From: Asparagopsis taxiformis
Lineage: Eukaryota > Rhodophyta > Florideophyceae > Bonnemaisoniales > Bonnemaisoniaceae
Direction: 5' to 3'
Length of the DNA stretch: 64,000 bases
NCBI GenBank assembly: GCA_030407315.1
Contig: JALQPE010001848.1
Span: 1-64,000 of the forward strand
Part shown: positions 10,261-61,130 of the stretch, one piece after another
Layout of the letters: each line of letters opens with the position of its first letter
How positions within the stretch are numbered: position 1 is the stretch's first letter
Translations under genes and position numbers: made by a program
The notes under the pieces: generated by a model
Told to the model about the DNA's origin: nothing
The model's input: only the letters and a program-made list of their open reading frames with translations
The model's database searches: none

Positions 10261-10383
10261 AATTTGGTGGCCCAGCATCTCCTGTGCCGAAAATTCCCGC
10301 ACTCACTTCTGATATACGTCTAGACGTGTGTTTCGCACTTGTACGCATCAGGGAAGGCGTCACGGAAGGTTGAGACTCAGTCT

Positions 10384-20748: not shown

Positions 20749-20751
20749 GCC

Positions 20752-21245
20752 TGTCCTTTAGTAGTTAGCTATTAATGGTCGTTCTGCTTCGCACCTTACC
20801 AATAAACAGCCAGCATCTTCGCAGCTACGAGTTAAGCGTTTAGCGAATCGCGAGGACCGATTGCGTTGAAACGTTGCGTGCGGGTTGCTCACGATCGCCG
20901 ACGTTCGCGTGCGCGCTGCGCATAAACCGATCGTCGAACCGCGTCGCACCGCGATAGCGCGCGTTGCGTCTCACGTCACTAGGCCAGGGATTTACTACCC
21001 CTGTGTGGATCGCGTTGTGCTCGAGTTTACTCGGTGATCTCGCCCTGAGATCACGGCTTGCGCCGGCCCGTGAATCCCGTGTTGCGATCGTTCCCTACGC
21101 GTTCCGCCGCTGTACCACCCGTTCGCCAGCGCGACAGAGCGACGCGCGAAACACAAGTTCAACCAGCGCGTTATGGTTCACCTCGCCCTGACACGGCTGC
21201 AATTCTGGAACTCCCTTAGCGATCGCCGCCCCGGCTGGTCCTACA
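20752..21245 (+). repeat. Second LTR fragment, opposite orientation, head to head with the first
   Basis: The stretch 20795-21245 is the reverse complement of 19987-20437, 451 bp in each arm, with a few substitutions and small differences. The segment 20752-20794 starts TGTCCTTTA but then differs from the first LTR, so its U3 part is replaced or deleted. It ends in CCTACA and is followed by unrelated sequence. It is a solo or broken LTR of the same family in plus orientation, only three bases from the start of the other LTR. Confidence 0.75.
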
Positions 21246-40456: not shown

Positions 40457-40541
40457 GGGCCGTTCCCAGGAAAAATTTTGCACGGGAAATTTGTATGCAC
40501 GTGCACGAAACGATGGAATAGAGACTTTTGATTGGCTCCAT
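40457..40541 (+). repeat. Left terminal inverted repeat of the Harbinger element
   Basis: 85 bp, an exact reverse complement of 46232-46316. Weaker inverted similarity continues inward to about 40770, including a segment coding for a similar short peptide start (MPRSGRIL against MPWSGRIL). The two arms therefore share promoter and leader sequence. Confidence 0.92.
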
Positions 40542-40683
40542 ATGTTAATATGTTAAACTACTTTTATTGAACTACTGAACTCCTGATCTCTGCATGCGCG
40601 CCACTTGTAAGTAGTACGATGGGGAATCACTGAGGTATCCTGAGTGCTAGCTTGTTCTTTTCGGTATCCTAGCATAGCGGAGG

Positions 40684-42405
40684 ATGCCAAGGAGCGGCCG
40701 GATCCTCGATCGGACCACGAGTACCCGCCTGTACTTGACCCGATCATACCGGGTCAGAAGATCCTCGTACGTTGTAAAGCTTCCAAACCTCACGTCTAAC
40801 GCCCATCCCCAGCATTCTCTGTATCTAAGCAGATTGGCACAAGTTCAAACGGTCTACTCATGCGCTCTAATGGAAAGGCGTCCATCCAATCTACCTACAA
40901 CCGCGTTAATCTCTCCCCCCAGTGGGGAACACAGCAAGCAAAATTTAGAAGATGCGCCTTCCATCGGCAGTGTAGAAGATCAGTCACCATCTCGTGACAA
41001 TTTGAAGCAGCCGATGACATGTCCGGAGGTTCGAAGGCATGGAAGTGGAACTTTGGATGAGGTTTATTCTTTCTTGCAGTTCTGCAAGCATGGAGAGTTG
41101 CGAAACATGAATAAGAGCTGGGGAATGAATGTAGGAGGAAAGAAAGAGGTTTTAGTTGCACGTGCTATGTTGCGAATACTGTCTATAGCTCGGAAGGGAC
41201 AAGATATTCATGATGTTCTGGTAAAGAACCAATATGTACCTTCACTGGACACGTTCTGGGAAAACAGACGTGTAAAAAAAGACTTAGTTCGAACATTCCC
41301 CGGCAAGGAAGAGCTACTCAAGGTTTTAGATGAAAGAGAAAGAAGAACTGTGGAAAGGATGTTTTGTGTTTCTGTGAAGAGAAGAATATTACAACCGGAA
41401 GAGTGCAAAGATGCTGCACAAAACAATGCGAAAGACGGAGAAAATACAGGGACAAAACAGAATTGCGGAAAAGGTAACAGGGAAGGGAGCATTCAGTTCT
41501 CACTAGGTGAATTTGCAAGACTAATGCTTGTTATCCGCGACGATCAAGTTGCCAAATCTGCAGTTTTGCAGGCAACAGAAGAGGAGCTCAGTAAGCGGGA
41601 TATGGATATAGGAAGAACAAGAGACTCATTCTGGAAAATTGTTGAAATTCGGTTCAACACAGCTGTTATCACTGAAGGAATAGATCTCAGTGGTCGTGTG
41701 GACAACGTGGACGCAACAGCGCCACCATTAGTTCCGAGAAATGCAGCAAAGTTGAGGGCTGTGTATACTGACGCGAAATCAGATTTCACAGAAGCAATGG
41801 CGAGGTATAATAGATCAGGTCAGTCTGATCCAGGTCGTTTTCCAAAGTTCTTGAGCTACCTCCAAAATGGAGAGCTTTCCCAAGAATCAAAGAGGGTTTA
41901 CATCATTTTTTCTGCTGCAGGAGTAGGTTCAAGAACGCAAAACGATGATTTCATCCGTCTCATGTCGAAAAGTATCGATCCGAATGGCTCAGACACTCGT
42001 GGTTACGAAGAAGGAATGGATATGAATCCTTCACAATACACACCCGTCTCATCTCCTCCCAGTTCTAGTTTCTGGGGAAAGCGCCGTAGAAGCTCCGACC
42101 AGGCCAGCTCCTCTGGAATGCTACATATTTTCCAAAATGTGGTCCAAGACTACAGTCGCCTTCAGCGGATGAAGCTAGATACTGCCAGCAATAATTCACA
42201 TTTATCTCCTACAGAATCTGCAACAAGAGAAAGGTGTTCAGGTGTACTTTCGAACGCAGTGGAAAAGGAAAAGTTGATGGAGCTGGTGAAAAATGCGGCG
42301 ACTACGTTGGAGACTGCCAAAGAAACTAGTAATCAAAGCTTCCAGGATGTAGCGCAAGAACACTATGAAGACATGCTGAAGAAGTATAAGGAGTTCTCAA
42401 AGTAA
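40684..42405 (+). CDS. Harbinger accessory protein with SAP-like and Myb-like regions
   Basis: An open frame of 573 residues; a second ATG at 40870 would give about 511 and avoid translation of TIR-derived sequence. Residues about 119-160 (FLQFCKHGELRNMNKSWG then GGKKEVLVARAMLRI) resemble a SAP DNA-binding helix-turn-helix. Residues about 310-410 (DSFWKIVEIRFN and YNRSGQSDPGRFPKFLSYLQNG) resemble the trihelix Myb/MADF-type proteins that partner Harbinger transposases. Such partners carry the transposase to the nucleus and to target DNA. Its place opposite the transposase within the same TIRs supports this role. No frameshift. Confidence 0.6.
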   Translation: MPRSGRILDRTTSTRLYLTRSYRVRRSSYVVKLPNLTSNAHPQHSLYLSRLAQVQTVYSCALMERRPSNLPTTALISPPSGEHSKQNLEDAPSIGSVEDQSPSRDNLKQPMTCPEVRRHGSGTLDEVYSFLQFCKHGELRNMNKSWGMNVGGKKEVLVARAMLRILSIARKGQDIHDVLVKNQYVPSLDTFWENRRVKKDLVRTFPGKEELLKVLDERERRTVERMFCVSVKRRILQPEECKDAAQNNAKDGENTGTKQNCGKGNREGSIQFSLGEFARLMLVIRDDQVAKSAVLQATEEELSKRDMDIGRTRDSFWKIVEIRFNTAVITEGIDLSGRVDNVDATAPPLVPRNAAKLRAVYTDAKSDFTEAMARYNRSGQSDPGRFPKFLSYLQNGELSQESKRVYIIFSAAGVGSRTQNDDFIRLMSKSIDPNGSDTRGYEEGMDMNPSQYTPVSSPPSSSFWGKRRRSSDQASSSGMLHIFQNVVQDYSRLQRMKLDTASNNSHLSPTESATRERCSGVLSNAVEKEKLMELVKNAATTLETAKETSNQSFQDVAQEHYEDMLKKYKEFSK

Positions 42406-44350
42406 ACGTATACCGATATTTAGTAACACAACAGAAACTCTTTGCTTCCTTCTCTGCTTTCTTCTTCGCACTACGCTCAGCTTGGACTCGTTTCCTCTCT
42501 ATTGCGGCATCCAACAATTCAACTTCCTCATCCAATTCAATCTCAAGCACGCTCTCCGCGCCCTTTCGCAAACTCACACATACACCCTCGCGAGCAACGT
42601 ACGGACTATGTGGCCCTATTGCCGTCTGAACTTCCTAACCACTGCTGTGATGTTTTCCGAGCACGCGTGGTAAACTCAACAGCTTACACGCAACCTCCAA
42701 TGTTACTTCACTGACATCCATTCCGGGAAGTAATCCACACCTCTTCGGTTTCTTGCCTTCTACGGCGTCCTCGTCACGCCCTAATTGCACGTACGGTCCA
42801 TAACGGCTTGTCTTCAAAAGAACTGGCAGTCCTGACTCGCTGTCTACCCCCAATTGCGGATCTTGCGCCATGTGTAGCTCTTTTTCCACATGCTCCCCAC
42901 ATAATTCATCCGCCAGAGTTGCTTTTGGTAGCGACGCTACCACACTTTTCGACAGCAAATGCAGTTAGACTAGGCACAAGTGATTTCGATGACACAGACT
43001 TGCCTTCACCGAATGTACTGCCGCGATACGCATACCCTCTCTGAATCAATTTTTCTGTAATGCTCACACATGTGCTAGGTCGTCCAATTCCTATTTCTTC
43101 TAGCTCTTTTACTAGTGATGCATCATTATATCGTGCAGGTGGTTTTGTTTCATGCCTCACTACCGTAATATCACTTGCTCCCAACGCATCACCGTCTTTC
43201 ATCGCCGGTAAATATGAAGAAGTGTTCGAAATATCGTCACCGGTATGCTCGTAGAAAACCAGGATCAACCACTACGTTTCCCGTTGCCTTGAATTCAGCC
43301 ACATCTGCTTCGCATGGAACAGTGATTTTTACAGCAGTTTGGTCCAGTAGTGCAGGAACCATTTGCGTCGCCAAAGTCCACCGATGAATTAGTGAGTATA
43401 CTGCTTGTTCATCTGCTTCAAGCTCAGTCAATTCCTCCGGCCTACGAAACGATGTCCCGGCTGGTCGAATAGCTTCGTGTGCAGCCTGCGCTGCCTTGGG
43501 CTTTGAGCCGCGTTTGCCACTCGCCCCCTTCCGTAACGTATCAGCACCGTAGAGGTCTTTGAATGCTTCCCGACACGCCTTTACTGCCTGCCCGCTCAGC
43601 GATGGGTTGTCCGTCCGCATATAAGTAATATGCCCGTTTTCGTAGAGCTTTTGCGCCACACGCATGCAACGTCCTGCCCCCATTCCAAGTTTATTCCCAC
43701 ATTCTTTTTGTAGTGTGGAAGTAATTAACGGTACAGGAGGATTGCGCGTTGTCCGTTTCTTCTCAACAGTTGATACTTTCGCGCTTTCACATTGCAGCCT
43801 GCTTACAAGCTGCTTCATTCCTTTCTCATCAAATAGTCTCAAGCCCTTTTTCTCTGCCGCAGCAGAGAGTTTCCCAGTTTCATCTTCAAAATCGCTACCT
43901 CGGAGCAGTCGTACACCATTGACAGCAGCGAGAGTACCAACAAACTTTTTGCCATTATCGGAAGTAAAATGAACAGTGCAATAGTGGTATTCTGCCCTTA
44001 GGAAACGCAAACGCTCCAGTTCGCGGTGCAAAACAACTGACATGGCAACACTTTGTACACGACCAGCGCTAAGGCCACGTGCAATTTTCTTCCATAACAA
44101 TGGTGACATAGTGTATCCCGCAAGTCTATCGAGCACGCGGCGTGTTTCCTGTGCCTGGACGAGGTTGAGGTCAATTTCCCTGCAACTTGAGAAGGCATGT
44201 TCAATGGCTTCTGGAGTAATTTCGTGAAAGACGGCACGTTTGATAGGGATGGAAGGTTTTAGAACTTCAGTCAAATGCCATGAGATAGCTTCGCCTTCTC
44301 GATCCTCATCTGTGGCCAAAATGAGTTCATCACTTTCTTTGAGCTCTGCT
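42330..44350 (-). pseudogene. Bacterial-type DNA topoisomerase IA fragment, broken
   Basis: Type IA topoisomerases relax DNA by cutting one strand through a Tyr. Recognisable in order on the minus strand: the end of the TOPRIM domain with ELILATDEDREGEAISWHL (about 44330-44275); VLDRLAGYTMSPLLWKKI; the catalytic Tyr in HITYMRTDNPSLS (about 43620); HEAIRPAGTSFRRPEEL; and, after a frameshift near 43255, ELEEIGIGRPSTCVSITEKL. Then, in other frames, come C-terminal repeats with SGLPVLLKTSRYGPYVQLG and SPYVAREGVCVSLRKG. Missing: the N-terminal start of TOPRIM, where an in-frame stop lies at about 44355, and the segment between AFAV (about 42975) and the C-terminal repeats. The gene is therefore non-functional. 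Organelle topoisomerases of plants and algae are the nearest relatives by type. It lies wholly inside the Harbinger element. Confidence 0.85.
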
Positions 44351-44626
44351 TTGAGCTGGGATCATGCTCTGCATCTGCGACGAGAACGGCCGGCGCGGCT
44401 GTGCCTTGCGGCAGATTCAGTTCTGCTATCAGTGCGCGTAGACGCGTGTCGGATCGGCCTGCAATGGCTAGACGGAGATGCGCGTGCTGACGGATGGCTG
44501 AACATTCACTGATTTGGACGATCGATCGTCAGTTGGTACAGGCATTTTTCGAAAAATGCCTACACCAACTGGTCTGGAGAATACAAAGAAATTTCTACGA
44601 GAGTAATCTCTTTTACTTCAGTTCTA

Positions 44627-45841
44627 CTACACCTTTCGTAAATCCCATACCAAATCTCTCAGTTTGTCCCTTTTTATTGAACGAGCAGGTGACCTCGTTC
44701 TCGAAAAGGATTGAGATGATTGTCTATGTTCTTTGGCCTCCTCGTACCATGCCTGCACTTCTTCCACAGTACCTCCATGCGAATTCAATTCATTTCTTAC
44801 AGAATCAAAACTCTCGCCTTGTTCAATACAAAGATTGTGTAGTTTCATGCATGCACATACGACTCGTATGTTTCGACTTAGAGAAAATTCCAAACCACCA
44901 TTCAGAACACGCCACCTAGCCACCAAGTGCCCGAACGCCTGCTCGATATGGACCCGGTGAGAGGAGAGAAAGAAGTTGAAATACTTTTCTTTGTCGTTGC
45001 ACTGACTTCTTGCGTAAGGAGTAATCAACCAATTTCTGCATTCGTACGCCTCGTCTCCACAAATCCAAAACTCTTCCTGCAAGCCTCCTTGAGATAGATA
45101 GGCTCCCAATTCTGACACAGAATGTGCTAAAGCATCGTGTGTGGCACCTACACACCGAGCGGAATAGCAGAGAAACCTGTAATTGGCGTCTACGAGTGCC
45201 TGTACTGGGATTGCGTAATACCCTTTTCTGCAAAAGTACGCTGCTGGTCGCTCGTTACATCCTGGTTTTGCAATTTGTATGGCAATTCCATCGAGTGCAC
45301 CGACACATCCGCTTAATGGATTTGTGAATCTTCTTGACAATTTAAATTCTATAGATGCCCTGTGCAGATCTTCCCAGCTTCTTGAAATTCCTGGAAGCCG
45401 AAGTGCTTCCATTATTGCTTGGCATGTGTCATGAAAAATGCGATAAATGGAACTAACAGAGACATTGAAACACAACCTTAGATCCAAATAACTGGCCCCA
45501 GCTAGCATCCGAAGTGTAATTGCCAGGCGGCTGTCTGCTGCAACCTTAGTTCCAGTGTTGTGAACGCAGCTTACACTTTCAAAAACTATTCCACCGAGAA
45601 GAAGCGACAATAACCGGTAAAAGGAATTCCGTGACAGTCTGTAAGTTCTTGTGAAGTCTTCTTCGTTTAGCATAGAACTTATGCAAATAAACTGCCTACA
45701 CTGCCGCCTGCAGGGAGATTGCAGAAATGTTTCCTCTAGGAGAACCATCAAATACCCCATAAAAACCACGATACCGAATTCATCATCTTCTGAAGCGAAT
45801 ACCTCGCTTATTTGACGGGTTAGAAGACTAGAACCACTCAT
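44627..45841 (-). CDS. PIF/Harbinger transposase (DDE_Tnp_4 type)
   Basis: A 404-residue frame from the ATG at 45841; it is open upstream to about 45910 without another ATG. The helix-turn-helix-like N-terminal part contains DFTRTYRLSRNSFYRLLSLL and LRLCFNVSVSSIYRIFHD. The catalytic acids are the Asp in CVGALDGIAIQI, the Asp in FWICGDEAYECRNWL and the Glu in HRVHIEQAFGHLVARW, the standard Harbinger spacing. The product would excise and insert the element at TNA-like trinucleotides. It is apparently intact, convergent with the SAP-like ORF, and may still be active given the perfect TIRs. Confidence 0.9.
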   Translation of the reverse strand: MSGSSLLTRQISEVFASEDDEFGIVVFMGYLMVLLEETFLQSPCRRQCRQFICISSMLNEEDFTRTYRLSRNSFYRLLSLLLGGIVFESVSCVHNTGTKVAADSRLAITLRMLAGASYLDLRLCFNVSVSSIYRIFHDTCQAIMEALRLPGISRSWEDLHRASIEFKLSRRFTNPLSGCVGALDGIAIQIAKPGCNERPAAYFCRKGYYAIPVQALVDANYRFLCYSARCVGATHDALAHSVSELGAYLSQGGLQEEFWICGDEAYECRNWLITPYARSQCNDKEKYFNFFLSSHRVHIEQAFGHLVARWRVLNGGLEFSLSRNIRVVCACMKLHNLCIEQGESFDSVRNELNSHGGTVEEVQAWYEEAKEHRQSSQSFSRTRSPARSIKRDKLRDLVWDLRKV

Positions 45842-46231
45842 GCGATTACGTTCGGAGTACCACGCGCTGTTTTGATGTTCTATTTCTCTCCTGGTGCCCA
45901 ATACCTCCAATATGTTGATCAGTGCATCGTCTATACGTGTGTATACGGAGCGTTACAGATCCGGGAAGATCAAATTTGGAGTTCCCGGTTGTTCTTACCC
46001 GTTACAATCGGGTCAAGTAAAGGCGTGTAATAGTGGTCCACTCCAAGATTCGTCCGCTCCATGGCATCCTCCGCTATGAGAGGTTACTGAAGAGAAAAAG
46101 CTAGCACTCGGGATACCTCAGTGATCCCCCATCGTATAACTTACAAGTGGCGCACATGCAGAGATTTTGAGTTTTAAACTTATCATCTCGGTACGTTTTC
46201 GGGCTGTGCAAGGTGTCTCACTCACTTCTAC

Positions 46232-46316
46232 ATGGAGCCAATCAAAAGTCTCTATTCCATCGTTTCGTGCACGTGCATACAAATTTCCCGTGCAAAATTT
46301 TTCCTGGGAACGGCCC
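46232..46316 (-). repeat. Right terminal inverted repeat of the Harbinger element
   Basis: Exact reverse complement of 40457-40541, followed by the TCA target duplication at 46317. Inverted similarity to the left end, interrupted, continues to about 45990. A GGTAAGAA donor-like site at about 45995-46003 on the minus strand may mark a 5' exon of the transposase gene. Confidence 0.92.
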
Positions 46317-47393: not shown

Positions 47394-50300
47394 ATGGGAT
47401 CAGAAGGTGAAGCACAGAGCAGTACGACACTGTTCGCACCACTCAAGCACCCAGAACTACGGAGGCTGGGAAGCAAGTCGATCCAAACTTTTCTCGCACA
47501 GCGAGAACAATATTTGCTCAGGGCAAAGGATGCTGAAGAGCAAGGAAGCACATTCAAACCGATATCACTTACTAACTCAGTTGATTTCAAACTGTTGAAG
47601 GCACTAGTGCAATTAGGAACATTTGAAGGAGTACAGCAAGTGTCAGAGCTGTCAGATGTTTCTCTAAAGAAGTGGTTGGAATTGCAATTGGAAGATGCGC
47701 TGGAGAATGTCACTGCAGAGGAGCTGCAGTCGATGCTTAAAAAGAAAGTTCGAACAGACATGGCTGAAACCGATCCGAAGCTGAGGATCATAGCTCTGTT
47801 CACGGACTATATATCATTCCTGGAGGAATATAAACTACAAGAAATAATTGAAAGTAATCCAAAGCTAGCCGTACAGCACATATGCAAGGTTTTGCGGCCA
47901 GCAGCACTCAAGAATAAGGTCGAGAATGACCTGGAACTGCATAAGACTGATTTGAGGAAGGACTGGAAAGGGTTCTTCGATTATGTAGTCGAGAAGGCTA
48001 TTGTATGTGAAGAGTTTCACAAGGTATCGGACAATGGAAATAATGAAACGTCCGGTATGACAACCAAACAGGGATCATCATCATCATCTTCACGAAGCGG
48101 CTTCAAAGTTAAAGGGAAGCCGTGGAAGAGACAGTCTGTTACCAAAGACAGACAAATTGAGACCAGACGCACAGCGGAAAAAGATGTTGTAAGTGATCCA
48201 AACCTGGCCAGACCAGCATCATCGGCTCCATTCTGCCTCAATACCATAACGTGTCCAGGAGAGAGACACTATATAAGGTGGTGTACAAAATCTACTGCCG
48301 AACAGAAGCGTAAGCTTTTGGAGGACTTTAGGCGGAAGAGCTCAGGGGCATCAATTAAGCGCGTGCGCATGGAAAATGATACCCAGTCAGGTGACCATAT
48401 GAAAAGCGATAAAAAGGCTCATAAGAAGGGTCGAATCAATGCCGTATTGGCTGACAAAGTTGAAGTTGTCGTTTCCGGGGACTACGGAGCAGATCATGCT
48501 GCACTCTCAGAGGAACATTTGAAGATGTTGGCAAAGGAAAACATATATGTGTCTATGTTGCCACTCAATGATCCAATTGTGATGCGATTGGCTGTTGACG
48601 GTTATGATGATGCAATGACTATCACGGCACATTCTAAAGCGAGAATTTCAACGACTCTATCAACCTTGGAAGGCCCATTCAGGTTGCGCAATGTTGAATA
48701 CTTAGTGTTCAAGGAGCCTATGGATGAGGTGCTGTTATCGCGACCAGTATTGCAGACACTTGGATTTGATCTAGATCAACACCTCTTGCGTGTACGTGCG
48801 AAATACAATGACGTAGATATGACGGGTATCTCTTTTGAACCAGAAAGTGGCTTGCAAGAAAATGAAATCGAGCCTGCTGGATCTTTGTCACAGCTTGTGA
48901 CGGCAGAGTCGAGTGGGACTGCGATATACTTGGACGAACATACGGAGAAGAAAGGTTCTATCATAGAGCGAATTGATGCATATGCGTCAACAGATCAGTA
49001 TGCTGCAACTTGCCACGACCTTGACATTGATAAGGCAATGGATGTTGGACTGCATAACCCTAATGGTGTCAATGTACATTTAAAGCGGATGTATGACGAG
49101 GCTATGGAAGCGGGATTGCCCGTAAATTTGGGGCCACGTATGCAGCATATACTAACACATCATGCTGATATATTCCGACTGCGATTGGGATCTGACCCAC
49201 CCGTAAGCATCGAGCCGATGCAGATCAGGCTGCAGCCGAATGCAGTCCCGGTACGAGTAAGGCTACGTCGCTACACGCAGCAACAGCATGATTTTTTGAC
49301 CAAAAAGGTGTCTCAACTGGAGCAACTTGGTTTGGTTCGGAAGAATAACCAAAGTGCATGGGCATGCGCTCCTCTTCTGGTACCCAAGAAGGGCCCAGAA
49401 ATGTTTCGGTTCACTACAGACTTGCGGCCAGTCAACAAAGTAACCATTCCATACGCATGGCCTATGCCAAACGTTGAGAGCGTTTTGGCCAGACTGGCCG
49501 ATAGAAGGTGCTTCGCGACTATTGACTTGTGCCAGGGTTATTGGCAGTTGCCTTTGGCGGAAGACGCACAAGAATGCCAGAGCTTTATCACTCCGGATGG
49601 AGTTTACACACCCACTCGGGTCATGCATGGACAGCGCAATGCTGTAGCCTATTGTCAAAGCTCTGTGCAACACATTTGCGAACCAATCATGGAGAATCTG
49701 CTTCTTTGGTTGGACGATATACTGCTTCATGCCACAACAGCAAGTGAGCTGTTGGATGTCATGGAACGATTTTTTGCTTTGTGTAAGCAATTCAATCTGA
49801 AGTTGCATGCCGCAAAGTGTCATCTATTCATGACAAAAGTACGCTGGTGTGGACGAATTATCAGTATCAACGGTGTTAAGATGGATCCATCAAGGATGGA
49901 AGCGTTACTACGCATGCCATATCCAAAGACATGTGATCAGCTGCAACAGTTCATTTGTGCAGCCGGATGGATGCGCACTGGAATACCACAGTTCACAACT
50001 GTAATTGAACCACTGGCTGTGCTTATGGAGGAAATTTATAAGATTGCAGGTACAAGGAAGAAGCGCAGACTAACAAAGTACGCCTTAGATGCTAATGGAT
50101 GGAATCATACTCACAGAGAGGCTTTCGAAAATGTGAAGCAAGCTTTGGCAAAGTCTGTTGTGTTGGCGCACCCCTCTGCATCAAAACTGATATGTTTATT
50201 CACTGATGCCAGTGACAAACACTGGTCAGGAATCCTGACGCAAGTTCCACCCAATGACATTGATTTACCGTTTGCGGAACAGAAACATCAACCGTTGGCA

Positions 50301-52011
50301 TTCTTATCTGGATCATTTCACGGCGCAAGTTCAAGGTGGTCAACTCCTGAAAAGGAAGCAGCAGCTATCATATACAGTGTACAGAGGTTGGACTATCTAT
50401 TATTGAGACCTGAAGGGTTTCATATATTTACAGATCACAGCAATTTGATCTTTATGTTCAATCCAGAGACAGCAGCCACGAGGCTAAACAGGGCCAGTTT
50501 CTCCAAAGTACAGAGATGGGGTATGATACTCGCACAGTATCAATATACTATCATACATATATCAGGCGAGCAGAACTGTTGGGCCGACTTACTATCACGC
50601 TGGGGTGCAACAGAACTTAGAAACAAGGACGCTGAGCAAGAGCATATGCGAGTAGCATCCTTGTGTCGTGCTCCCCTTTCTCCAGAGTATGATCCCGACT
50701 TTACATGGCCGAATAAGGAAGACTTTTTAGCTTCGCAAGCCGCTGTTGATGATGCAGAGAAGCTGACAAACGTCTTGAGCATACAGGATGGACTTCTGAA
50801 GACTAATTCTGGTGCAATATTCATACCTTCTAATGATACGCACATGCAATTACGAGTTTGTGTGGTTGGTCATTGCGGGAAGGCGGGGCATCGTGGATTC
50901 GATAGCACGTATGAATCAATCAAGAGTTGTTTCTATTGGCCGTCTTTGCGAGCAGACGTCAGGCATTTCTGCAAATCGTGTCTGCACTGTCTGGCAACAT
51001 CAGGAAGCCAAAGAATTGAGCGCCCAAGAGGACATGCTATACATGCAACCAAGGTCAACGAGGTAATACATTTTGACTTCTTATATATGGGTGCGAGTGA
51101 CACAAAGGACCAATACGTCATGATCATCAAGGATGATTTGTCGAACTATACATGGTTACAAGCATCAAGGGAAGCTGATGCATTTTCTGCGTCAATTGCA
51201 TTGCTGAAATGGTTCGCTGCTCTTGGGACGCCGCGAATATGGGTAAGTGATCGAGGATCACACTTCAAAAATAAGTTGGTTGATTATATTAATCGAGCTA
51301 TGCATTGTCAACACCACTTTACCACACCTAATACTCCTCATGCTAATGGAACTGTTGAACGAGTATGCAGAGAAGTCCTGAGGTGTTGCAGAGCGCTCCT
51401 ATCCGAGTTCAGGCTGAAGGAAACAGAGTGGCCGCATGTTCTGCACATTGTGCAATCGGTGCTCAACAACTCTGTAGTTGCAAGCTTGGGAAATCGAGCT
51501 CCGATAACTGTGTTTACAGGAAGAGAGCCAGACAGTCCTTTAAAGTTCCTCTTACCGCCTGCTGTTGCAAAGCCAAGGGCAATTGCAGAGGTGAAGCTAC
51601 TACAATCAATCAAGATTGAAGGACTACACAAGTCATTGGAGGCCATACATCGCGATGTTACAGAGCGAAAAACGAAGCAAAGGTGTGCAGATGTAAAAAG
51701 GCATAATGCAAAAACGTTTGTACATGAAACCAACTTTGATGTTGGCGACTTTGTTTTGGTAGCGAAGCGACTGAATAAGGATGGGCATAAGTTGCAGATG
51801 CAGTGGTTGGGACCCCAGCGAGTTTTGCGGGAGGAGTCGGAATGGGTATATGAGTGTGAGGATTTAATCAATGGAAAGGTTTCATTGGTACACGCGAACA
51901 GGTTGAAATTCTATGCAGACTCACAGCTCAATGTTACACAAGAACTACTGGATACTATAGACCACAATGATCGGCATTATAATACTGTGTCCAGACTTCT
52001 GGATTTGCGTT
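47394..52011 (+). CDS. gag-pol: Gag-pol polyprotein of the chromodomain retrotransposon (interrupted)
   Basis: A single frame from the ATG at 47394. As far as the insertion point it contains, by residue: a gag-like helical part (1-250) with a loose CCHC-like knuckle (CLNTITCPGERHYIRWC, about 282); a protease-like region near 395-470; reverse transcriptase (FTTDLRPVNK at about 670, LDLCQGYWQLPLA, catalytic LLWLDDILLH at about 770); RNase H (LFTDASDKHWSG at about 934); and integrase. The integrase shows the HHCC finger GHCGKAGHRG then CKSCLHCL at about 1158-1200 and acidic residues in HFDFLY (about 1225), VSDRGSHF (about 1283) and NGTVERVCRE (about 1318). A GPY/F-like module WLGPQRV sits at about 1470. 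The frame runs 128 bp into the nested transposon and stops at 52139. It would otherwise continue in phase into the chromodomain at 61131 (1,623 residues in all). Confidence 0.93.
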
Positions 52012-55000
52012 GGGGAGCACTTAATCTACCGCCGGTAGAGACGGTAAGATTTCAGCCAATCGGACGAACTCGTCAAGCTGTTTTGACCAATCGCAGAAAC
52101 TTGTCAAGCGCCTGGCCCGGTTATCTCCGTGGCCCGTAGATGCACCAATCACAAAAACTCGTCAACCAAATATGATAAATTTTGGCGAATACGGCCTTTT
52201 CATTGGTTGAAAACAGCCTGGATCCAGGAAAGCTGGAAAAAGTACCGCTAGCGCAACATGCGAAAACAGCTGCTCTGAGAGGGTTCGCACCGCCCGTCGC
52301 TCCGCGTGACAAACTCAACCATTTTCGCGTGACTCGAACTTTCAACTTTCTCGTTCACCGAAATTCAATTTCCCATTTTCGCCGCCGCCAATTATTGGAA
52401 ATGGCGGGTAATCCAAATCTCGAAATCTCTCGCCGCGCGGCACCGGCAGATAGGACCGCCCCGCAGTGGTCCGCTCCTCTCGAGACCCCATGACATCGTC
52501 ATCTACCCCCGTGCCACCACCGCGGCTACTGCCGCGATATCGACACCACTGTCAACATTCCCGCCCGGTTTCTATGCGCGTTGACGTCTTCTACACGCAG
52601 TTATCGATATTTTTGCGCGCCAGACAAGACCATTCACTTCCTGTGTGAGTGAAACGAACCGAGCTAAAACATTTATGCAGAACAGCAGATAAAGGAGCGA
52701 GAATACCTGCATGACTAGCACCAGTATTGCTGCAGTCTTCTCACACTTCTGCATGCTTTCAACATTGCAGTACTCTTTCTGATCTCTCGTTCATTGTCTT
52801 ACCCGGTTCTCATCGCAGGTCTGCGAATTTGAAATTGCCTTTGCTGGGAACTGTCTTTCTCGTAGATAACAACGGAACGAATTAGTTTACTGTTCTCTGT
52901 TAACAAAAAGAGGGACGCGATCCGCCGGTTTCTTCCTTCAATTAAGTTCTGAAGCGCTAACATTGTATTGCAGTTTCTGAAAAACCGCCAAGACGCTGTC
53001 ATGAGCTCATCCAATCATCAATGGGAACTTCTGGCGGATGAATCCGGAAGCTCTAACACATTGGAAGAGTGTTTGGAAAAGCGCATAGAAGAATTTATGG
53101 AAATGGTGAAAGTGGATGGCATGATTTTAACGGAAAGACAGTGGAACTCTCTTCACATACATCTGAATGAGTCGTTTGCATCATTCAAATCGTGTGACGA
53201 CACAAAACCGTGGTTTGAGCACGCGAAACCAGAATGCATGCTTGACGACCATTTGTTGCTTGCCGGACTGTCCGAACTAACAATGGCCGATAATTTCATA
53301 ATATTCGGCTGCAACTCAGGGCAGCATTTTATGGCAGGTGCAGGGAGGGCTGGAAATGGCGTTCGAGAAGAGGATGGGATGTTTGACAACATTCGAAACA
53401 TTGTTCTGCAAGCATGGGTCGATTCCGATGTCGCTCCTAGCTTTATTATTCCGGTAAATATCAGGAGATCGCACTGGGGTGCTGTGTTCGGTGTCAACGA
53501 CCCAGAAGATGAAACGCATGGAATTGTTTACTGGGGTGACAGTTTGAGACACCCCTGCCCTCATAACCTTCTCGAGTTCGTGACCAGTTTCTTCGAGGAT
53601 ACGTGCATGAACACGGTGTGGACGACAAGTGGAGATAACTACATCCTAGACGTACTATCATTTAAAATGCAGCTCGATGCATACAGCTGTGGATTTTATG
53701 TTCTCAGCGCAGCAACAAGTCTCTCGGAATACTCTGGAAATATGCCGAAACAAACTTTCAAGACGCAGTACTCTGCAGAACTTACGGAGGATATCCGGAA
53801 ATGCTGTACTATGCGATACGTGAGGGCTGTGTTGGAGTTGTGTGATTGTGATGAATTTTCGAATGGCAAGCCTACCGACTTAGATGTGTGCAGATATTTG
53901 ATATCATTCCTACCCGGAAATCAGTGCCCCAGCGAACGTGTCTATGACGAAGCTCCGGTAATAACAATTGAAATGGACCCTACAGTTTCTCAGAGCAGAA
54001 TAGTGCAGCCAGGTGATGTCGAATATGACTGGAGCGAGAGCACAGAAGGGAGTAGAGCGTTTGATGGAAGTGACGGAAAGAGTATGTTCGAATGGTACAA
54101 TGAAATGGATGCTAAAAGCACAAAGAAGGATACGTTGGCTGCTACTAAATGTTCTCCAGCTCAGACTGAGATCGACGTGCTGCCCGATGAAGAAGACTTT
54201 GAGCCTGCTCCGCCCGCGCAGCTTCAGAAGAACGTAAATACGGACGCTCTAGTCAAGGCTAGAAGGGAAAAATCTACGATCGAGGCGCGAATACAACGCC
54301 CCGGAAGGGGATCTCGAATGCTGTCCTCAGCTGGGCCAGAGAGACTTGGCACAGAGCTGCACGGTCCACGGGGCATGGAGGCGGATCCTGAGAAACACGA
54401 CGCATTAATGGCCCGGCACACTGCTAGTACCAGTGTGACACGCGCCGGCAGTGCTGGTACCTGCCCAACTGTCTCTCCGGCGCCGCCGGCTTCAATACCT
54501 TGTCCCGGACCAAGTGAGTTGCCAGAATCTCACAGTCATGTTTTCGCATGTAATGATGGAAGAAACGAAGGGGAAGGAATTGCCGTCGATGAAGAGTGCG
54601 CACGTGAGTCATCTGCCATAACTGGTGTACATACCTATGTTCAGGACTCATTGAAGCCTGTGGAGCCACTTACAATAGAAGAGTGCATCGTTGTCAGAGG
54701 GTCAGTTCTGCATTACTTGGACCAGTGCCATGCAAAAGGCGTGCACTACGGTGCAGTCACAACAATTTTGCGGCGGAGTAACGAGACAAGACCAGGTGAT
54801 CCTCTCAGCTTTATTGGAAGCATACGGCTCCGGTGCGTAGAGCGCCGTCGTGCATCAAATTGCCCAGTGGAATTGTTAGCATGGAGATCGAGGGACGAAT
54901 GCCAGTGGCTCGTGAAACCACCGACTACAAGCCACACACACGAAAAGAGCCCCAGCTCCAAACCGTCCCAACGCCACAAGTCTACCATTCGCACTATTTA

Positions 55001-55035
55001 TGACTTCGAGAAAGAGCTCTGCACTATCTCCCGTT
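52012..55035 (+). repeat. Left 3,024-bp terminal inverted repeat
   Basis: Reverse complement of 58097-61120 with equal length and so no net indel. By eye I found one substitution (52661 against 60471). It contains the leader, start codon and first 678 codons or so of the main ORF. Coordinates in the two arms sum to 113132. Confidence 0.93.
52056..52168. repeat. Subterminal direct repeats of the Mutator-like element
   Basis: Three related copies of about 24 bp begin CCAATC and end in a GTCAA core, at 52056, 52087 and 52145. An inverted CATTGGTTGA lies near 52200. They are mirrored at about 60964-61076. Clustered subterminal repeats are typical transposase-binding sites, but binding is inferred. 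Confidence 0.6.
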
Positions 55036-57905
55036 CATGCAGAAGAGCATGCTTTGCTTACTACGCCGAACGAAAATCGAAAATTGGAAGCGGTGTGATC
55101 TCTAGAAATGAGAAGGGGCTTGGCAAACAGAAGCTGAATACATTACAATCCAACCACAAAAAAACTGATTCCCTGCTTGCTTCCCGTTCCGATCACCTCC
55201 GAAATCCCAAGTATGACGCCCCGCTTATGACAGATACCGAAGGGCAGTGCGATGTCACTCGGGAAGACGGTGGTGAAACTAATAAGCAGATGAACTCTAA
55301 CTTGGAACAAATATCAATGATTGAAATCCCATCCAGCAATGACGAGCGTGGAAGTCTTCCGGAAGGGCAGGAATCAACAACTCATCAAGCAGATATCGAT
55401 AGTGTGAAAAACACGGTACCAGAGGCCATGAAAAGCGTTGCTCGCAAATACGATGGCTTTGACAGCAACGGTCTTCTCCCCTCACTACGCCATGTTTCGG
55501 AAAGCTATGGTTACAAACTCAAGATCAGACGTTCCATCTATTATGATGAAGATCGCCAGTACGTGAATAACGTGACACTCTCATGCACACATGCCCATCG
55601 CGGATGTCAGTTTCAATGCCGCGTCAGAGGTTTCCTTTCTGATGCATACATTAGTGATCAAAATGCGTCAGGAAACGATCCGAGATTGAGTACCGGGAGT
55701 CGTATGTTTGAGATTAGGCATGTGCTTCGCTTTTGGCACAAATTTCATAACCACGACCCGTCACCTACTATTGTAAAGGGTGCTGTCCCACCGGAGGCCT
55801 TGAAGACTGCAGAGAATATGAGAAATGTTTCATTTATGCGTTGTCGAGACATTACAAGATATATTGAGGACACTTACAAGATCTGCGTGAGTCGCACATA
55901 CCTTCGCAATTACCTTTTCTACCGTTATCGCAGCGCAAATCCTATCGAACAGGACAGCATGCGCCTCATTCGAAACCTGGTTTCTTTACAACAGAAAAAC
56001 TGTAGGACGTACTTCACAATTCGATTGACTGGCGACAACAGGCTTCACTCTATCGTTTGGTCCTTACCACTTTGGAGAGACATGTACCACCTCAACGGAA
56101 TTCTTCCTGGAGTTTCAGTTGACTGTAAGTCAATATCAAATATCTATGGTCTACCACTCATCGCTTTTTCTGGAAGGACAAATGAAGGGAAAGTTTGTTT
56201 CTTTATGATGGGTGTCCTGCATGACCAAACGGAAGAAAGCTTGGAATGGGCTATGAGAGAATTTGACAATATGGTACCAGCTACACCAAATATCGTCGCT
56301 CTCGACCAGGATGCGGCTGGAATAAACGCTGCGAAAAAAGTTTGGCCGTTTTCATATCATCTACTAGATGACTGGCACATTAACCAAAACCAACTCAAGA
56401 ACGTTGCCTCTTTTATTAACAAATGTGGCATCACGGCCCTAGCAAATCGTATATCTGTTGGGTCTTCTTTGTTTCCAAGACGACGCAGAACCGAACATGA
56501 TCATTCAGCGGCAATACCAAATTCGTACTCGGATATGTGCTCCGACTTGTACGCGTTGCGCAGAAGCCCAACCGAGGCCGTATTCCTGGAGAGGCGAGAA
56601 TCGTTCGAGAGCATATATTTTGAGGGAGTTGAACCACCGAGATGGTATACGACGCTTTACAAGAAGCTACCAGAGATGGTCATTCAGTGCTATAACCGGA
56701 CTCGGTGTGGATTGCGGTTCCTTTTCCAAGGTACCACTCATACTGAATCATTCAACTCGATATATAAATCTTCCATCTTGGACAGGAATGTCCCGTTGGG
56801 AGAGGTTCCGATAGAAATGAACCGTGTAACTACTACACTCGATGAAGAACGTATCAGAGATGTCAACAAAGTCTCGAGGGTGCTCAGGCTGCAAATGAAA
56901 GGAACTGACTTCTTTCCTACCACAGAATTGTTGGACCAATTTATGCTATCATTCACCAACTATTCTATTTCTTCTTTCCTTAATCTGAGCTATTCTGGAT
57001 CATCTGAGTGGCACATTGCCGGATTTATTCTTGTGCCACAACTTTCGACCGTTCCAGCAAACGCAACTAGTACTGTTTTTGGATCGATAGAATCGGACGC
57101 CTCCTACTTCAAGCATGTGAAATTTTTTCTTGAGTTTGGCGAAGAGAACAACCGCAGAACAGTTGATGTTAAAATATGGAATAGAATGTCCCAAAACAAA
57201 ACTGATGTTATGGGATTGCATGCAACATGTTCCTGTCCATTCTACAGATCAGCTGGAATACCCTGTCGTCATCTAACTCGAGTGGCATTTCAATATGCCG
57301 ACTACACAAAAACAAACCCGACTATCAAAGAGTATTTGGGAACCAAAGAATCGCTGAATCTGAGCTCCATGTTTCACAAGTACTGGAGGCGGAATAGAAC
57401 GTCATGGCGCGATGAAGTAATACGTTCACGGTTCACAACAACGACAGACCAATCGGTGGGCTTATCTACGAATGTTAATGAAGGAGAGCAAGTCAATGTA
57501 GCTGGTGCACCAAACCCAATCGAGAAGGATGTGAGATATAGCAACTGCAAGGCTGTATTTGACCAGATTTTCCGGCACGTGGAATGCCAAGGAGCATATG
57601 CTTCTTCAGTTTTCAAAAGCGCTCTTGATGCTATGCTCGCACAATCTACGAGAGGTGGGCTGCCTGGCTCGGGAATAGATTTAGACCGCCCACTAGACCT
57701 AGAAATTGCTCCAAACAATCAAGATTTCATTCGCAGCGAGGGCAACAATATCGTCATTAACGGCGAGATTGGTAATCCCACTGTGAGGAGAGCGGGAAAC
57801 CGAGGATCCAACAAGAGAAAACGTTCATTCCTGGAGAGAGGTGGGCGAAAGTCATTACGTATCAAACGAGGTCTTGCAGCACCTCGCAAAGTAGAACACA
57901 AGTGA
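53001..57905 (+). CDS. Ulp1-type cysteine protease fused to MULE transposase with SWIM zinc finger
   Basis: 1,634 residues from the ATG at 53001. The frame is open further upstream, but only non-ATG codons and a splice-acceptor-like TTGCAG at 52973 are there. The N-terminal Ulp1/C48 domain has the triad H158 (RRSHWGAV), D180 (YWGDS) and C230 with oxyanion Q224 (MQLDAYSCGFY), the SUMO-protease pattern. A long polar linker runs from about 330 to 830. A FAR1/FLYWCH-like zinc region (CTHAHRGCQFQC and HNHD) lies at about 850-925. The MULE transposase core has Asp in SVDCKS (about 1040), Asp in IVALDQDAAG (about 1103) and Glu in HTESFNSIYKSS (about 1248). The SWIM motif CSCPFYRSAGIPCRHL is at about 1410, followed by a basic tail. 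All catalytic residues are present, so the element may be autonomous. Confidence 0.92.
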   Translation: MSSSNHQWELLADESGSSNTLEECLEKRIEEFMEMVKVDGMILTERQWNSLHIHLNESFASFKSCDDTKPWFEHAKPECMLDDHLLLAGLSELTMADNFIIFGCNSGQHFMAGAGRAGNGVREEDGMFDNIRNIVLQAWVDSDVAPSFIIPVNIRRSHWGAVFGVNDPEDETHGIVYWGDSLRHPCPHNLLEFVTSFFEDTCMNTVWTTSGDNYILDVLSFKMQLDAYSCGFYVLSAATSLSEYSGNMPKQTFKTQYSAELTEDIRKCCTMRYVRAVLELCDCDEFSNGKPTDLDVCRYLISFLPGNQCPSERVYDEAPVITIEMDPTVSQSRIVQPGDVEYDWSESTEGSRAFDGSDGKSMFEWYNEMDAKSTKKDTLAATKCSPAQTEIDVLPDEEDFEPAPPAQLQKNVNTDALVKARREKSTIEARIQRPGRGSRMLSSAGPERLGTELHGPRGMEADPEKHDALMARHTASTSVTRAGSAGTCPTVSPAPPASIPCPGPSELPESHSHVFACNDGRNEGEGIAVDEECARESSAITGVHTYVQDSLKPVEPLTIEECIVVRGSVLHYLDQCHAKGVHYGAVTTILRRSNETRPGDPLSFIGSIRLRCVERRRASNCPVELLAWRSRDECQWLVKPPTTSHTHEKSPSSKPSQRHKSTIRTIYDFEKELCTISRSCRRACFAYYAERKSKIGSGVISRNEKGLGKQKLNTLQSNHKKTDSLLASRSDHLRNPKYDAPLMTDTEGQCDVTREDGGETNKQMNSNLEQISMIEIPSSNDERGSLPEGQESTTHQADIDSVKNTVPEAMKSVARKYDGFDSNGLLPSLRHVSESYGYKLKIRRSIYYDEDRQYVNNVTLSCTHAHRGCQFQCRVRGFLSDAYISDQNASGNDPRLSTGSRMFEIRHVLRFWHKFHNHDPSPTIVKGAVPPEALKTAENMRNVSFMRCRDITRYIEDTYKICVSRTYLRNYLFYRYRSANPIEQDSMRLIRNLVSLQQKNCRTYFTIRLTGDNRLHSIVWSLPLWRDMYHLNGILPGVSVDCKSISNIYGLPLIAFSGRTNEGKVCFFMMGVLHDQTEESLEWAMREFDNMVPATPNIVALDQDAAGINAAKKVWPFSYHLLDDWHINQNQLKNVASFINKCGITALANRISVGSSLFPRRRRTEHDHSAAIPNSYSDMCSDLYALRRSPTEAVFLERRESFESIYFEGVEPPRWYTTLYKKLPEMVIQCYNRTRCGLRFLFQGTTHTESFNSIYKSSILDRNVPLGEVPIEMNRVTTTLDEERIRDVNKVSRVLRLQMKGTDFFPTTELLDQFMLSFTNYSISSFLNLSYSGSSEWHIAGFILVPQLSTVPANATSTVFGSIESDASYFKHVKFFLEFGEENNRRTVDVKIWNRMSQNKTDVMGLHATCSCPFYRSAGIPCRHLTRVAFQYADYTKTNPTIKEYLGTKESLNLSSMFHKYWRRNRTSWRDEVIRSRFTTTTDQSVGLSTNVNEGEQVNVAGAPNPIEKDVRYSNCKAVFDQIFRHVECQGAYASSVFKSALDAMLAQSTRGGLPGSGIDLDRPLDLEIAPNNQDFIRSEGNNIVINGEIGNPTVRRAGNRGSNKRKRSFLERGGRKSLRIKRGLAAPRKVEHK

Positions 57906-58082
57906 TGGAGTAAATCAAAGCCCCCTTCCCTTACATAACTCCCATTGTGTGTCAAATCTGTTCACATCACTACACAGGGTTCGATCTTTGCATAGAATAA
58001 AAAAAATCAAGTAAAGAGTTGTGTATCATAGTGAGCGCTGAATGACCTATATTTATCACAACTTAACCCATTTCAATGCAGT

Positions 58083-60131
58083 TCAATGTAGACAGCAACG
58101 GGAGATAGTGCAGAGCTCTTTCTCGAAGTCATAAATAGTGCGAATGGTAGACTTGTGGCGTTGGGACGGTTTGGAGCTGGGGCTCTTTTCGTGTGTGTGG
58201 CTTGTAGTCGGTGGTTTCACGAGCCACTGGCATTCGTCCCTCGATCTCCATGCTAACAATTCCACTGGGCAATTTGATGCACGACGGCGCTCTACGCACC
58301 GGAGCCGTATGCTTCCAATAAAGCTGAGAGGATCACCTGGTCTTGTCTCGTTACTCCGCCGCAAAATTGTTGTGACTGCACCGTAGTGCACGCCTTTTGC
58401 ATGGCACTGGTCCAAGTAATGCAGAACTGACCCTCTGACAACGATGCACTCTTCTATTGTAAGTGGCTCCACAGGCTTCAATGAGTCCTGAACATAGGTA
58501 TGTACACCAGTTATGGCAGATGACTCACGTGCGCACTCTTCATCGACGGCAATTCCTTCCCCTTCGTTTCTTCCATCATTACATGCGAAAACATGACTGT
58601 GAGATTCTGGCAACTCACTTGGTCCGGGACAAGGTATTGAAGCCGGCGGCGCCGGAGAGACAGTTGGGCAGGTACCAGCACTGCCGGCGCGTGTCACACT
58701 GGTACTAGCAGTGTGCCGGGCCATTAATGCGTCGTGTTTCTCAGGATCCGCCTCCATGCCCCGTGGACCGTGCAGCTCTGTGCCAAGTCTCTCTGGCCCA
58801 GCTGAGGACAGCATTCGAGATCCCCTTCCGGGGCGTTGTATTCGCGCCTCGATCGTAGATTTTTCCCTTCTAGCCTTGACTAGAGCGTCCGTATTTACGT
58901 TCTTCTGAAGCTGCGCGGGCGGAGCAGGCTCAAAGTCTTCTTCATCGGGCAGCACGTCGATCTCAGTCTGAGCTGGAGAACATTTAGTAGCAGCCAACGT
59001 ATCCTTCTTTGTGCTTTTAGCATCCATTTCATTGTACCATTCGAACATACTCTTTCCGTCACTTCCATCAAACGCTCTACTCCCTTCTGTGCTCTCGCTC
59101 CAGTCATATTCGACATCACCTGGCTGCACTATTCTGCTCTGAGAAACTGTAGGGTCCATTTCAATTGTTATTACCGGAGCTTCGTCATAGACACGTTCGC
59201 TGGGGCACTGATTTCCGGGTAGGAATGATATCAAATATCTGCACACATCTAAGTCGGTAGGCTTGCCATTCGAAAATTCATCACAATCACACAACTCCAA
59301 CACAGCCCTCACGTATCGCATAGTACAGCATTTCCGGATATCCTCCGTAAGTTCTGCAGAGTACTGCGTCTTGAAAGTTTGTTTCGGCATATTTCCAGAG
59401 TATTCCGAGAGACTTGTTGCTGCGCTGAGAACATAAAATCCACAGCTGTATGCATCGAGCTGCATTTTAAATGATAGTACGTCTAGGATGTAGTTATCTC
59501 CACTTGTCGTCCACACCGTGTTCATGCACGTATCCTCGAAGAAACTGGTCACGAACTCGAGAAGGTTATGAGGGCAGGGGTGTCTCAAACTGTCACCCCA
59601 GTAAACAATTCCATGCGTTTCATCTTCTGGGTCGTTGACACCGAACACAGCACCCCAGTGCGATCTCCTGATATTTACCGGAATAATAAAGCTAGGAGCG
59701 ACATCGGAATCGACCCATGCTTGCAGAACAATGTTTCGAATGTTGTCAAACATCCCATCCTCTTCTCGAACGCCATTTCCAGCCCTCCCTGCACCTGCCA
59801 TAAAATGCTGCCCTGAGTTGCAGCCGAATATTATGAAATTATCGGCCATTGTTAGTTCGGACAGTCCGGCAAGCAACAAATGGTCGTCAAGCATGCATTC
59901 TGGTTTCGCGTGCTCAAACCACGGTTTTGTGTCGTCACACGATTTGAATGATGCAAACGACTCATTCAGATGTATGTGAAGAGAGTTCCACTGTCTTTCC
60001 GTTAAAATCATGCCATCCACTTTCACCATTTCCATAAATTCTTCTATGCGCTTTTCCAAACACTCTTCCAATGTGTTAGAGCTTCCGGATTCATCCGCCA
60101 GAAGTTCCCATTGATGATTGGATGAGCTCAT
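58083..60131 (-). CDS. Second, protease-only ORF in the right inverted repeat
   Basis: 682 residues on the minus strand. It is identical by eye to the first 678 or so residues of the 53001 gene because it lies in the mirrored arm. It ends four codons past the arm border (after CTISR it reads CCLH then stop). It has the full Ulp1-like domain with the H, D, Q and C residues but none of the transposase. The same promoter and leader precede it, so it is probably co-expressed with the full-length protein. It could act as a free deSUMOylating-type protease, or it may simply be a by-product of the long arms. Confidence 0.8.
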   Translation of the reverse strand: MSSSNHQWELLADESGSSNTLEECLEKRIEEFMEMVKVDGMILTERQWNSLHIHLNESFASFKSCDDTKPWFEHAKPECMLDDHLLLAGLSELTMADNFIIFGCNSGQHFMAGAGRAGNGVREEDGMFDNIRNIVLQAWVDSDVAPSFIIPVNIRRSHWGAVFGVNDPEDETHGIVYWGDSLRHPCPHNLLEFVTSFFEDTCMNTVWTTSGDNYILDVLSFKMQLDAYSCGFYVLSAATSLSEYSGNMPKQTFKTQYSAELTEDIRKCCTMRYVRAVLELCDCDEFSNGKPTDLDVCRYLISFLPGNQCPSERVYDEAPVITIEMDPTVSQSRIVQPGDVEYDWSESTEGSRAFDGSDGKSMFEWYNEMDAKSTKKDTLAATKCSPAQTEIDVLPDEEDFEPAPPAQLQKNVNTDALVKARREKSTIEARIQRPGRGSRMLSSAGPERLGTELHGPRGMEADPEKHDALMARHTASTSVTRAGSAGTCPTVSPAPPASIPCPGPSELPESHSHVFACNDGRNEGEGIAVDEECARESSAITGVHTYVQDSLKPVEPLTIEECIVVRGSVLHYLDQCHAKGVHYGAVTTILRRSNETRPGDPLSFIGSIRLRCVERRRASNCPVELLAWRSRDECQWLVKPPTTSHTHEKSPSSKPSQRHKSTIRTIYDFEKELCTISRCCLH

Positions 60132-61120
60132 GACAGCGTCTTGGCGGTTTTTCAGAAACTGCAATACAATGTTAGCGCTTCAGAACTTAATTGAAGGAAG
60201 AAACCGGCGGATCGCGTCCCTCTTTTTGTTAACAGAGAACAGTAAACTAATTCGTTCCGTTGTTATCTACGAGAAAGACAGTTCCCAGCAAAGGCAATTT
60301 CAAATTCGCAGACCTGCGATGAGAACCGGGTAAGACAATGAACGAGAGATCAGAAAGAGTACTGCAATGTTGAAAGCATGCAGAAGTGTGAGAAGACTGC
60401 AGCAATACTGGTGCTAGTCATGCAGGTATTCTCGCTCCTTTATCTGCTGTTCTGCATAAATGTTTTAGCTAGGTTCGTTTCACTCACACAGGAAGTGAAT
60501 GGTCTTGTCTGGCGCGCAAAAATATCGATAACTGCGTGTAGAAGACGTCAACGCGCATAGAAACCGGGCGGGAATGTTGACAGTGGTGTCGATATCGCGG
60601 CAGTAGCCGCGGTGGTGGCACGGGGGTAGATGACGATGTCATGGGGTCTCGAGAGGAGCGGACCACTGCGGGGCGGTCCTATCTGCCGGTGCCGCGCGGC
60701 GAGAGATTTCGAGATTTGGATTACCCGCCATTTCCAATAATTGGCGGCGGCGAAAATGGGAAATTGAATTTCGGTGAACGAGAAAGTTGAAAGTTCGAGT
60801 CACGCGAAAATGGTTGAGTTTGTCACGCGGAGCGACGGGCGGTGCGAACCCTCTCAGAGCAGCTGTTTTCGCATGTTGCGCTAGCGGTACTTTTTCCAGC
60901 TTTCCTGGATCCAGGCTGTTTTCAACCAATGAAAAGGCCGTATTCGCCAAAATTTATCATATTTGGTTGACGAGTTTTTGTGATTGGTGCATCTACGGGC
61001 CACGGAGATAACCGGGCCAGGCGCTTGACAAGTTTCTGCGATTGGTCAAAACAGCTTGACGAGTTCGTCCGATTGGCTGAAATCTTACCGTCTCTACCGG
61101 CGGTAGATTAAGTGCTCCCC
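58097..61120 (-). repeat. Right 3,024-bp terminal inverted repeat
   Basis: Mirror of 52012-55035. The inner border is where CCCGTT in both arms gives way to different sequence. Holds a second copy of the protease half of the gene on the minus strand. Confidence 0.93.
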
Positions 61121-61130
61121 GATTTGCGTT

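Follow-up and report, generated by a model that had tools for sequence, protein, structure and literature searches.

Why does a DNA transposon carry terminal inverted repeats (TIRs) so long that they contain the start of its own gene, and what keeps two such repeats nearly identical? The question is raised by a Mutator-like element (MULE) at positions 52012-61120 of the window, the 64,000-nucleotide stretch of the red alga Asparagopsis taxiformis analyzed here (positions 1 to 64,000, forward strand, of contig JALQPE010001848.1 in assembly GCA_030407315.1). Our answer, to which we give a probability of about two in three, is that the two inverted arms of this apparently intact MULE evolve together, as a single linked sequence, through repair of one arm from the other, which has sometimes extended the arms into the gene. 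The evidence comes from substitutions common to both arms of a copy and from the arm limits of related families in the same genome.

The element and its insertion site

The earlier note on this DNA, made by eye, described arms of equal length and near identity. Alignment of 52012-55035 with the reverse complement of 58097-61120 bears this out, with 3024 bases on either side and a single mismatch at 52661 (G vs T). Chance does not produce an inverted repeat of 3 kb with a single mismatch, and this pair is the longest of the three inverted pairs (minimum length 60) within the window. Pairing ends at both arm limits, and the 10-bp duplication flanks both sides. The features of the locus are as follows.

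47394-52011, + strand: open reading frame (ORF) of the recipient Ty3-like retroelement, interrupted here and resuming after 61130
52002-52011, no strand: left target-site duplication, GATTTGCGTT
52012-55035, + strand: left arm, TIR of 3,024 bp (arm alignment)
52012-53000, + strand: tip to start codon, 989 bp, presumed promoter and leader (promoter role suggested by known MULE TIRs)
53001-57905, + strand: main ORF, 1,634 amino acids from the ATG, with Ulp1-like peptidase, MULE domain, and SWIM finger
53241-53930, + strand: Ulp1-like (C48) part, limits approximate (family alignment and PDB matches)
55036-58096, + strand: unique middle, 3,061 bp
56136-56390, + strand: Pfam MULE domain, amino acids 1046-1130
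57219-57287, + strand: SWIM zinc finger, amino acids 1407-1429
57906-58096, + strand: spacer of 191 bp from stop codon to right arm
58097-61120, - strand: right arm, mirroring the left (arm alignment)
58083-60131, - strand: mirror ORF, 682 amino acids, Ulp1-like N-terminal part, with its stop four codons beyond the arm
61121-61130, no strand: right target-site duplication, GATTTGCGTT

The assignment to the Mutator-like elements holds, since PF10551 (MULE) is called in the main ORF at 1.3e-09 (38.8 bits vs a cut-off of 27.6) and the SWIM finger also lies above its cut-off. The left arm holds the start codon and 678 of the 1,634 codons of this ORF (about two fifths; the earlier estimate was about 680), and the right arm holds the 989-bp upstream region and the same 678 codons, mirrored.

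The insertion is precise. The interrupted ORF belongs to a Ty3-like retroelement with reverse transcriptase, RNase H, and integrase domains and repeated ends. When its left and right flanks were searched separately in the window's own assembly (141.5 Mb, 3,156 contigs), each was found at the same 14 other places, the right flank at full length. The site is uninterrupted in all 14 of these Ty3-like copies, some of which may be haplotype duplicates, and the two flank matches overlap there by exactly 10 bp (read by hand). The limits of the element can therefore be set at 52012 and 61120, and the clean 10-bp duplication previously noticed is confirmed at 14/14 empty sites. Exact duplications of 9-10 bp also flank 13 of the 15 elements with both ends read (by hand), the exceptions being the copies on contigs C666, with one mismatch, and C2593, where the duplication is unclear within a run of G.

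Arms within and between copies

The genome was searched for further loci of this family (family 1) with the outer 600 bp of the arm. Four loci on other contigs (C2045, C441, C422, and C569) share the arms around the same middle, with flanks and duplications of their own, and the window element is thus not a lone mirrored copy among relatives with short TIRs. C422 and C569 each have one arm whose outer part is displaced by additional DNA. Three of the five copies (the window, C2045, and C569, the last with a changed C-terminal end) have an open main ORF; in C441 and C422 it is broken.

The two arms of one copy differ at 1/3024 sites in the window, 0/3024 in C2045, 1/3023 in C441, 5/2648 in C422, and 0/2743 in C569, while comparisons of arms across these five copies give 2 to 19 differing sites (2 to 4 among the window, C2045, and C441). 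Family 2, which is about 74% identical to family 1 over the terminal 275 bp and about 66% in the middle, has arms of about 2,628 bp, and these differ within a copy at 5/2628 sites in C666, 0/2617 in C1938, and 28/2433 in C2839. In seven of the eight copies, the two arms resemble each other at least as closely as arms from different copies do. No site was discordant between the arms in both elements of a pair (13/13 pairs, 10 in family 1 and 3 in family 2), and up to 14 sites in family 1 and 24 in family 2 separate two elements in both arms alike; C569 and C422 each have private substitutions that are present in both arms. Because substitutions are common to both arms of a copy, the arms are homogenized in family 1 and in two of the three family-2 copies compared. 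For the same reason, recency was rejected as the sole cause of arm identity.

The earlier note had suggested recent formation or ongoing conversion between the arms. The shared substitutions argue for exchange, whereas recent formation of this one element is not supported, because its family as a whole shares these arms and related families have long arms too. Copies 0.1% apart, together with the empty sites, suggest that the element itself moved recently.

Homogenization was tested in families 1 and 2. For the other families, the alignments made give 97-100% identity between arms, with many small gaps in C1997, and the least alike arms seen (96.7%) are those of locus L029. The within- and between-copy counts leave out loci with one side only within the fetched stretch (C399, C1795:82196, and C476/C814), the family-2 loci L021 (taken as the same insertion as L024) and L028 and L029 (as L030), and the family-2 loci L022, L023, L026, and L027, which have no second arm in the stretch fetched. 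Contigs C476 (L019) and C814 (L020) carry the same locus, where a relative of the family-1 arm (93% identity across about 1,991 bp) is present on one side only; the 10 kb fetched contain no second arm. Two family-3 copies, L036 (C597) and L039 (C266), have retroelement-like ORFs inside one arm.

Arm length in seven related families ranges from about 0.53 to 2.63 kb. Eight families were read as DNA for their arm limits, with distances to the ATG counted by hand:

Family 1: arm of 3,024 bp, 678 codons inside
Family 2: arm of about 2,628 bp, about 600 codons inside
C1997: arm of 1,298 bp, 104 codons inside
C1596: arm of 1,245 bp, 110 codons inside
C356/C689: arm of 1,078 bp, ending 146 bp before the ATG
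C1888: arm of 889 bp, ending 40 bp before the ATG
Family 3 (C597; C266 partly aligned): arm of 762 bp, ending 108 bp before the ATG
C2336/C2593: arm of about 530 bp, ending 165 bp before the ATG in C2336

The arm thus enters the coding sequence in four of the eight families and ends 40-165 bp before the start codon in the other four. A protein search with the arm-coded part also placed the N-terminus to either side of the core, in opposing orientations, at C1795:57-64 kb and C232 (judged from protein matches alone) and at C276 and C699, which probably belong to family 2. Since the protein-level genome searches scored the best 55 of 190 and the best 65 of 244 candidates, the counts of families and loci are lower bounds.

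A transposase-core tree with 10 rows, 8 of them labeled, requires four changes of the label for arm-borne coding sequence, of which at least three are forced by well-supported branches, and this label is clustered no more than shuffled labels are. A smaller transposase tree agrees in placing family 2 with family 3. The spacer from the stop codon to the right arm measures 191, 111, 127, and 493 bp in the four families whose arms contain coding sequence. In the four without, it measures 682, 1,145, and 1,469 bp and, in C1888, about 720-860 bp (measured by hand, with 71 bp not fetched). A shorter spacer fits a longer arm that replaced sequence behind the gene.

The mirrored gene and the origin of the long arms

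Judging from alignments and structure matches, the N-terminus of the main ORF is Ulp1-like (C48). Residues H158, D180, Q224, and C230 are invariant in all eight families aligned, and we take them to be the catalytic residues of an Ulp1/C48 peptidase. A profile of the eight families found yeast Ulp1 first in PDB (E 0.0023), with the His/Asp/Gln/Cys motifs covered, while the window sequence alone reached yeast Ulp1 at E 0.039. Pfam C48 was called in the relative P0003; the window proteins gave no C48 call with E allowed up to 1 and 10. A structural model of the N-terminus is of moderate quality (pLDDT, the predicted local distance difference test, 66.5; built from four sequences); its six PDB matches at E <= 0.001 are all OtDUB, SENP1, or Ulp1, at low template-modeling scores of about 0.3-0.5. 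Searches of the protein database found three relatives of the transposase core and, among 3,378 candidates, one relative of the mirror protein (P0004); for the peptidase part of the full protein, none of 1,413 candidates was a relative at E <= 0.001. To look for selection on the arm-coded part, the ratio of nonsynonymous to synonymous substitution rates (dN/dS) was taken within the family: between the window and C814 it is 0.66 (272 codons), and against C1795 it is 0.56 (572 codons, mostly of the middle) and 1.43 in the arm (300 codons with 13 changes). Three further comparisons, between families, have saturated dS.

In the mechanism that we propose, a break in or beside one arm, e.g., after excision, would be repaired from the other arm, and such repair would keep the arms alike. 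Copying that ran past the old inner boundary would place the beginning of the gene on the opposite side as well, where the copied tract would replace sequence between the 3' end of the gene and the old right arm, so that the arm would grow. Several observations weigh against this reading. A clade of families 1 and 2 is not rejected (p 0.0588) and two long branches (C1596 and C1888) meet in the tree, so there may have been fewer independent extensions; the spacer comparison was made post hoc among related families. Neither growth nor repair of an arm was caught in progress, and no copy with an intermediate boundary was found within any family. The arms of C2839 differ even though its left arm equals that of C1938 (0/2625); the right arm of C2839 lies at a contig end, and the contig stops inside it. 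Read polishing may also exaggerate the likeness of arms, though it would hardly create the pattern.

The alternatives explain parts of the same data. The arms could be remade from one end at each transposition or replication, e.g., by self-priming of a folded single strand, and identical or nearly identical arms over the compared length in the window, C2045, C569, and C1938 are what such one-step renewal predicts. The arms of C422 (5/2648), C666 (5/2628), and C2839 (28/2433) do differ, which later mutation might explain, but MULEs are established DDE cut-and-paste elements and we know of no such renewal among them; we regard it as unlikely. We are similarly doubtful that the long arms are kept for a useful mirrored half gene, i.e., a short Ulp1-peptidase protein made from a second promoter or a mirrored RNA that tunes the activity of the element. 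The 682-amino-acid mirror ORF is open in four of the five family-1 copies, the His, Asp, Gln, and Cys residues are invariant in 8/8 families aligned, and the host has Argonaute-type and Dicer-like genes. The open mirror frame would nevertheless follow from homogenization with the main gene, the arms of four of the eight families contain no coding sequence, and the mirror product varies from 606 amino acids in family 2 to 130 in C1997 and 120 in C1596, the last two too short to be a peptidase. A conserved short mirror protein is not supported, as its end differs from family to family.

A single chance inverted duplication, recently spread by transposition and with arms alike merely from youth, would suit the 2 to 4 arm sites that separate the window, C2045, and C441. 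It leaves the private substitutions in both arms of C569 and C422 unexplained, and family 2, with a middle only about 66% identical, has 2,628-bp arms with a boundary of its own; a one-off event was rejected since further families also have long arms, and we consider this account very improbable. Least credible is an assembly fold-back or mis-join. The C2839 contig does end inside an arm, yet five loci have both arms, different flanks, exact duplications, and a unique middle, and with the 14 empty sites these led us to reject a fold-back.

Repair between the arms, which we prefer, leaves room for consequences of the mirrored sequence. A putative protein with the Ulp1 part alone could be expressed from the mirrored promoter, and RNA from read-through transcription could form a putative long hairpin. 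The host genome has three Piwi-domain matches, one with an internal stop, and a 2,446-amino-acid frame with two RNase III domains, which would allow hairpin silencing. That growth of the arm into the gene is both recurrent and useful, giving a putative Ulp1-only protein and a hairpin RNA against the element's own transposase sequence, like a Mu killer inside each apparently intact element, is a speculation that we think unlikely to hold. If true, a built-in half gene would limit the element's own spread and let it persist in its host.

Neighboring features and known systems

Elsewhere in the window, a PIF/Harbinger-type element (40457-46316) has 86-bp TIRs, a 3-bp duplication TCA (by hand), and a DDE_Tnp_4 ORF (44627-45910), and carries a type IA topoisomerase-like ORF (43237-44319; Topoisom_bac 4.1e-67). 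The topoisomerase stretch occurs near full length at nine places (97-100%, window included) and lies 2,944 bp from the element end in seven of the nine, window included. The window also contains a fold-back (19987-21245; 451-nt arms 98% complementary, 357-nt spacer, no flanking duplication by eye), a long direct duplication (387-10300; period about 5.68 kb, short repeats inside), and 111-114 bp tandem repeats within a 625-amino-acid ORF (38368-39643). The host genome is marked as that of a red alga by its phycobiliprotein genes, mostly on C469, and by phycobilisome linker genes on C469 and nine other contigs.

The window element has the marks of a MULE, i.e., a DDE domain, a duplication (10 bp) within the 8-11 bp expected, and TIRs. 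It resembles MuDR and its relatives and the red-algal MULE-Cc groups, as far as the accessible part of a MULE survey describes them, in its MULE domain, SWIM finger, duplications of 9-10 bp, and upstream region within the TIRs (PMC6446971). The earlier suggestion of an undescribed class of MULE is thus too strong, as the transposase domain, SWIM finger, and 9-10 bp duplications are ordinary. Its remark that the arms are unusually long for Mutator was right: that part of the survey gives TIRs of 14-500 bp in its text and 192, 500, 244, and 640 bp in its red-algal rows, and states that the cause of the wide variation in TIR length is not clear (PMC6446971). The 3,024-bp arm falls outside the 14-500 bp, which is a described range and not a defining mark. 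The elements studied here differ from those MULEs in that their arms measure about 0.53 to 3.02 kb and, in several families, take in coding sequence; an Ulp1-like domain in frame is a further difference. In the literature covered, which excludes subscription papers, preprints, and Repbase entries and was partly available as excerpts, we found no coding sequence inside MULE TIRs.

An Ulp1-type domain also occurs in the KI-MULEs, or Kaonashi, of plants; in the sources available in part, the Arabidopsis KI-MULEs are non-TIR elements whose Ulp1 part runs in reverse orientation or belongs to a separate gene, and some grapevine MULE families have it in the transposase frame. The Ulp1-like part described here differs from that of the KI-MULEs in leading the transposase ORF inside long arms. 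Tm1 Mutator/Foldback elements of root-knot nematodes share a MULE-type transposase, variable foldback-like TIRs, and 9-bp duplications (PMC3169594). Their TIRs are made of short repeated motifs and their transposase has 496 amino acids, and the text covered mentions no transposase gene within the arms (PMC3169594).

Galileo, of the P superfamily in Drosophila mojavensis, likewise has long, variable TIRs that recruit internal sequence, and the same mechanism of growth, repair from the other TIR, was proposed for it in the part of the report available (PMC3573991). The differences are that Galileo TIRs measure 18-1,250 bp and the elements described here have a MULE domain, not a P-type transposase; the Galileo copies with the longest TIRs are, according to that part, never nearly complete (PMC3573991). 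In one genome, by comparison, we find related families with arms of about 0.53 to 3.02 kb and boundaries on both sides of the start codon, which makes it possible to test in one organism how long inverted arms grow, how they are maintained, and what they cost. Such elements may be under-counted, since short-read assemblies would be expected to break at the arms.

The geometry resembles that of Mu killer in maize, in which the TIR and the first part of the transposase gene are mirrored, with 1.298 kb of mudrA in both halves; in the accessible text, Mu killer is one derivative with an internal deletion, and it silences MuDR (PMC3440606). Here, in contrast, the full 1,634-amino-acid ORF is open, the gene is kept through the middle, and the form is common to a family. 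The unusual traits of these elements are the length of the arms, the presence of the gene within them, and a boundary that can move. This is a known kind of element, a MULE, and it is new as a variant, in which a geometry like that of Mu killer is found in apparently intact elements.

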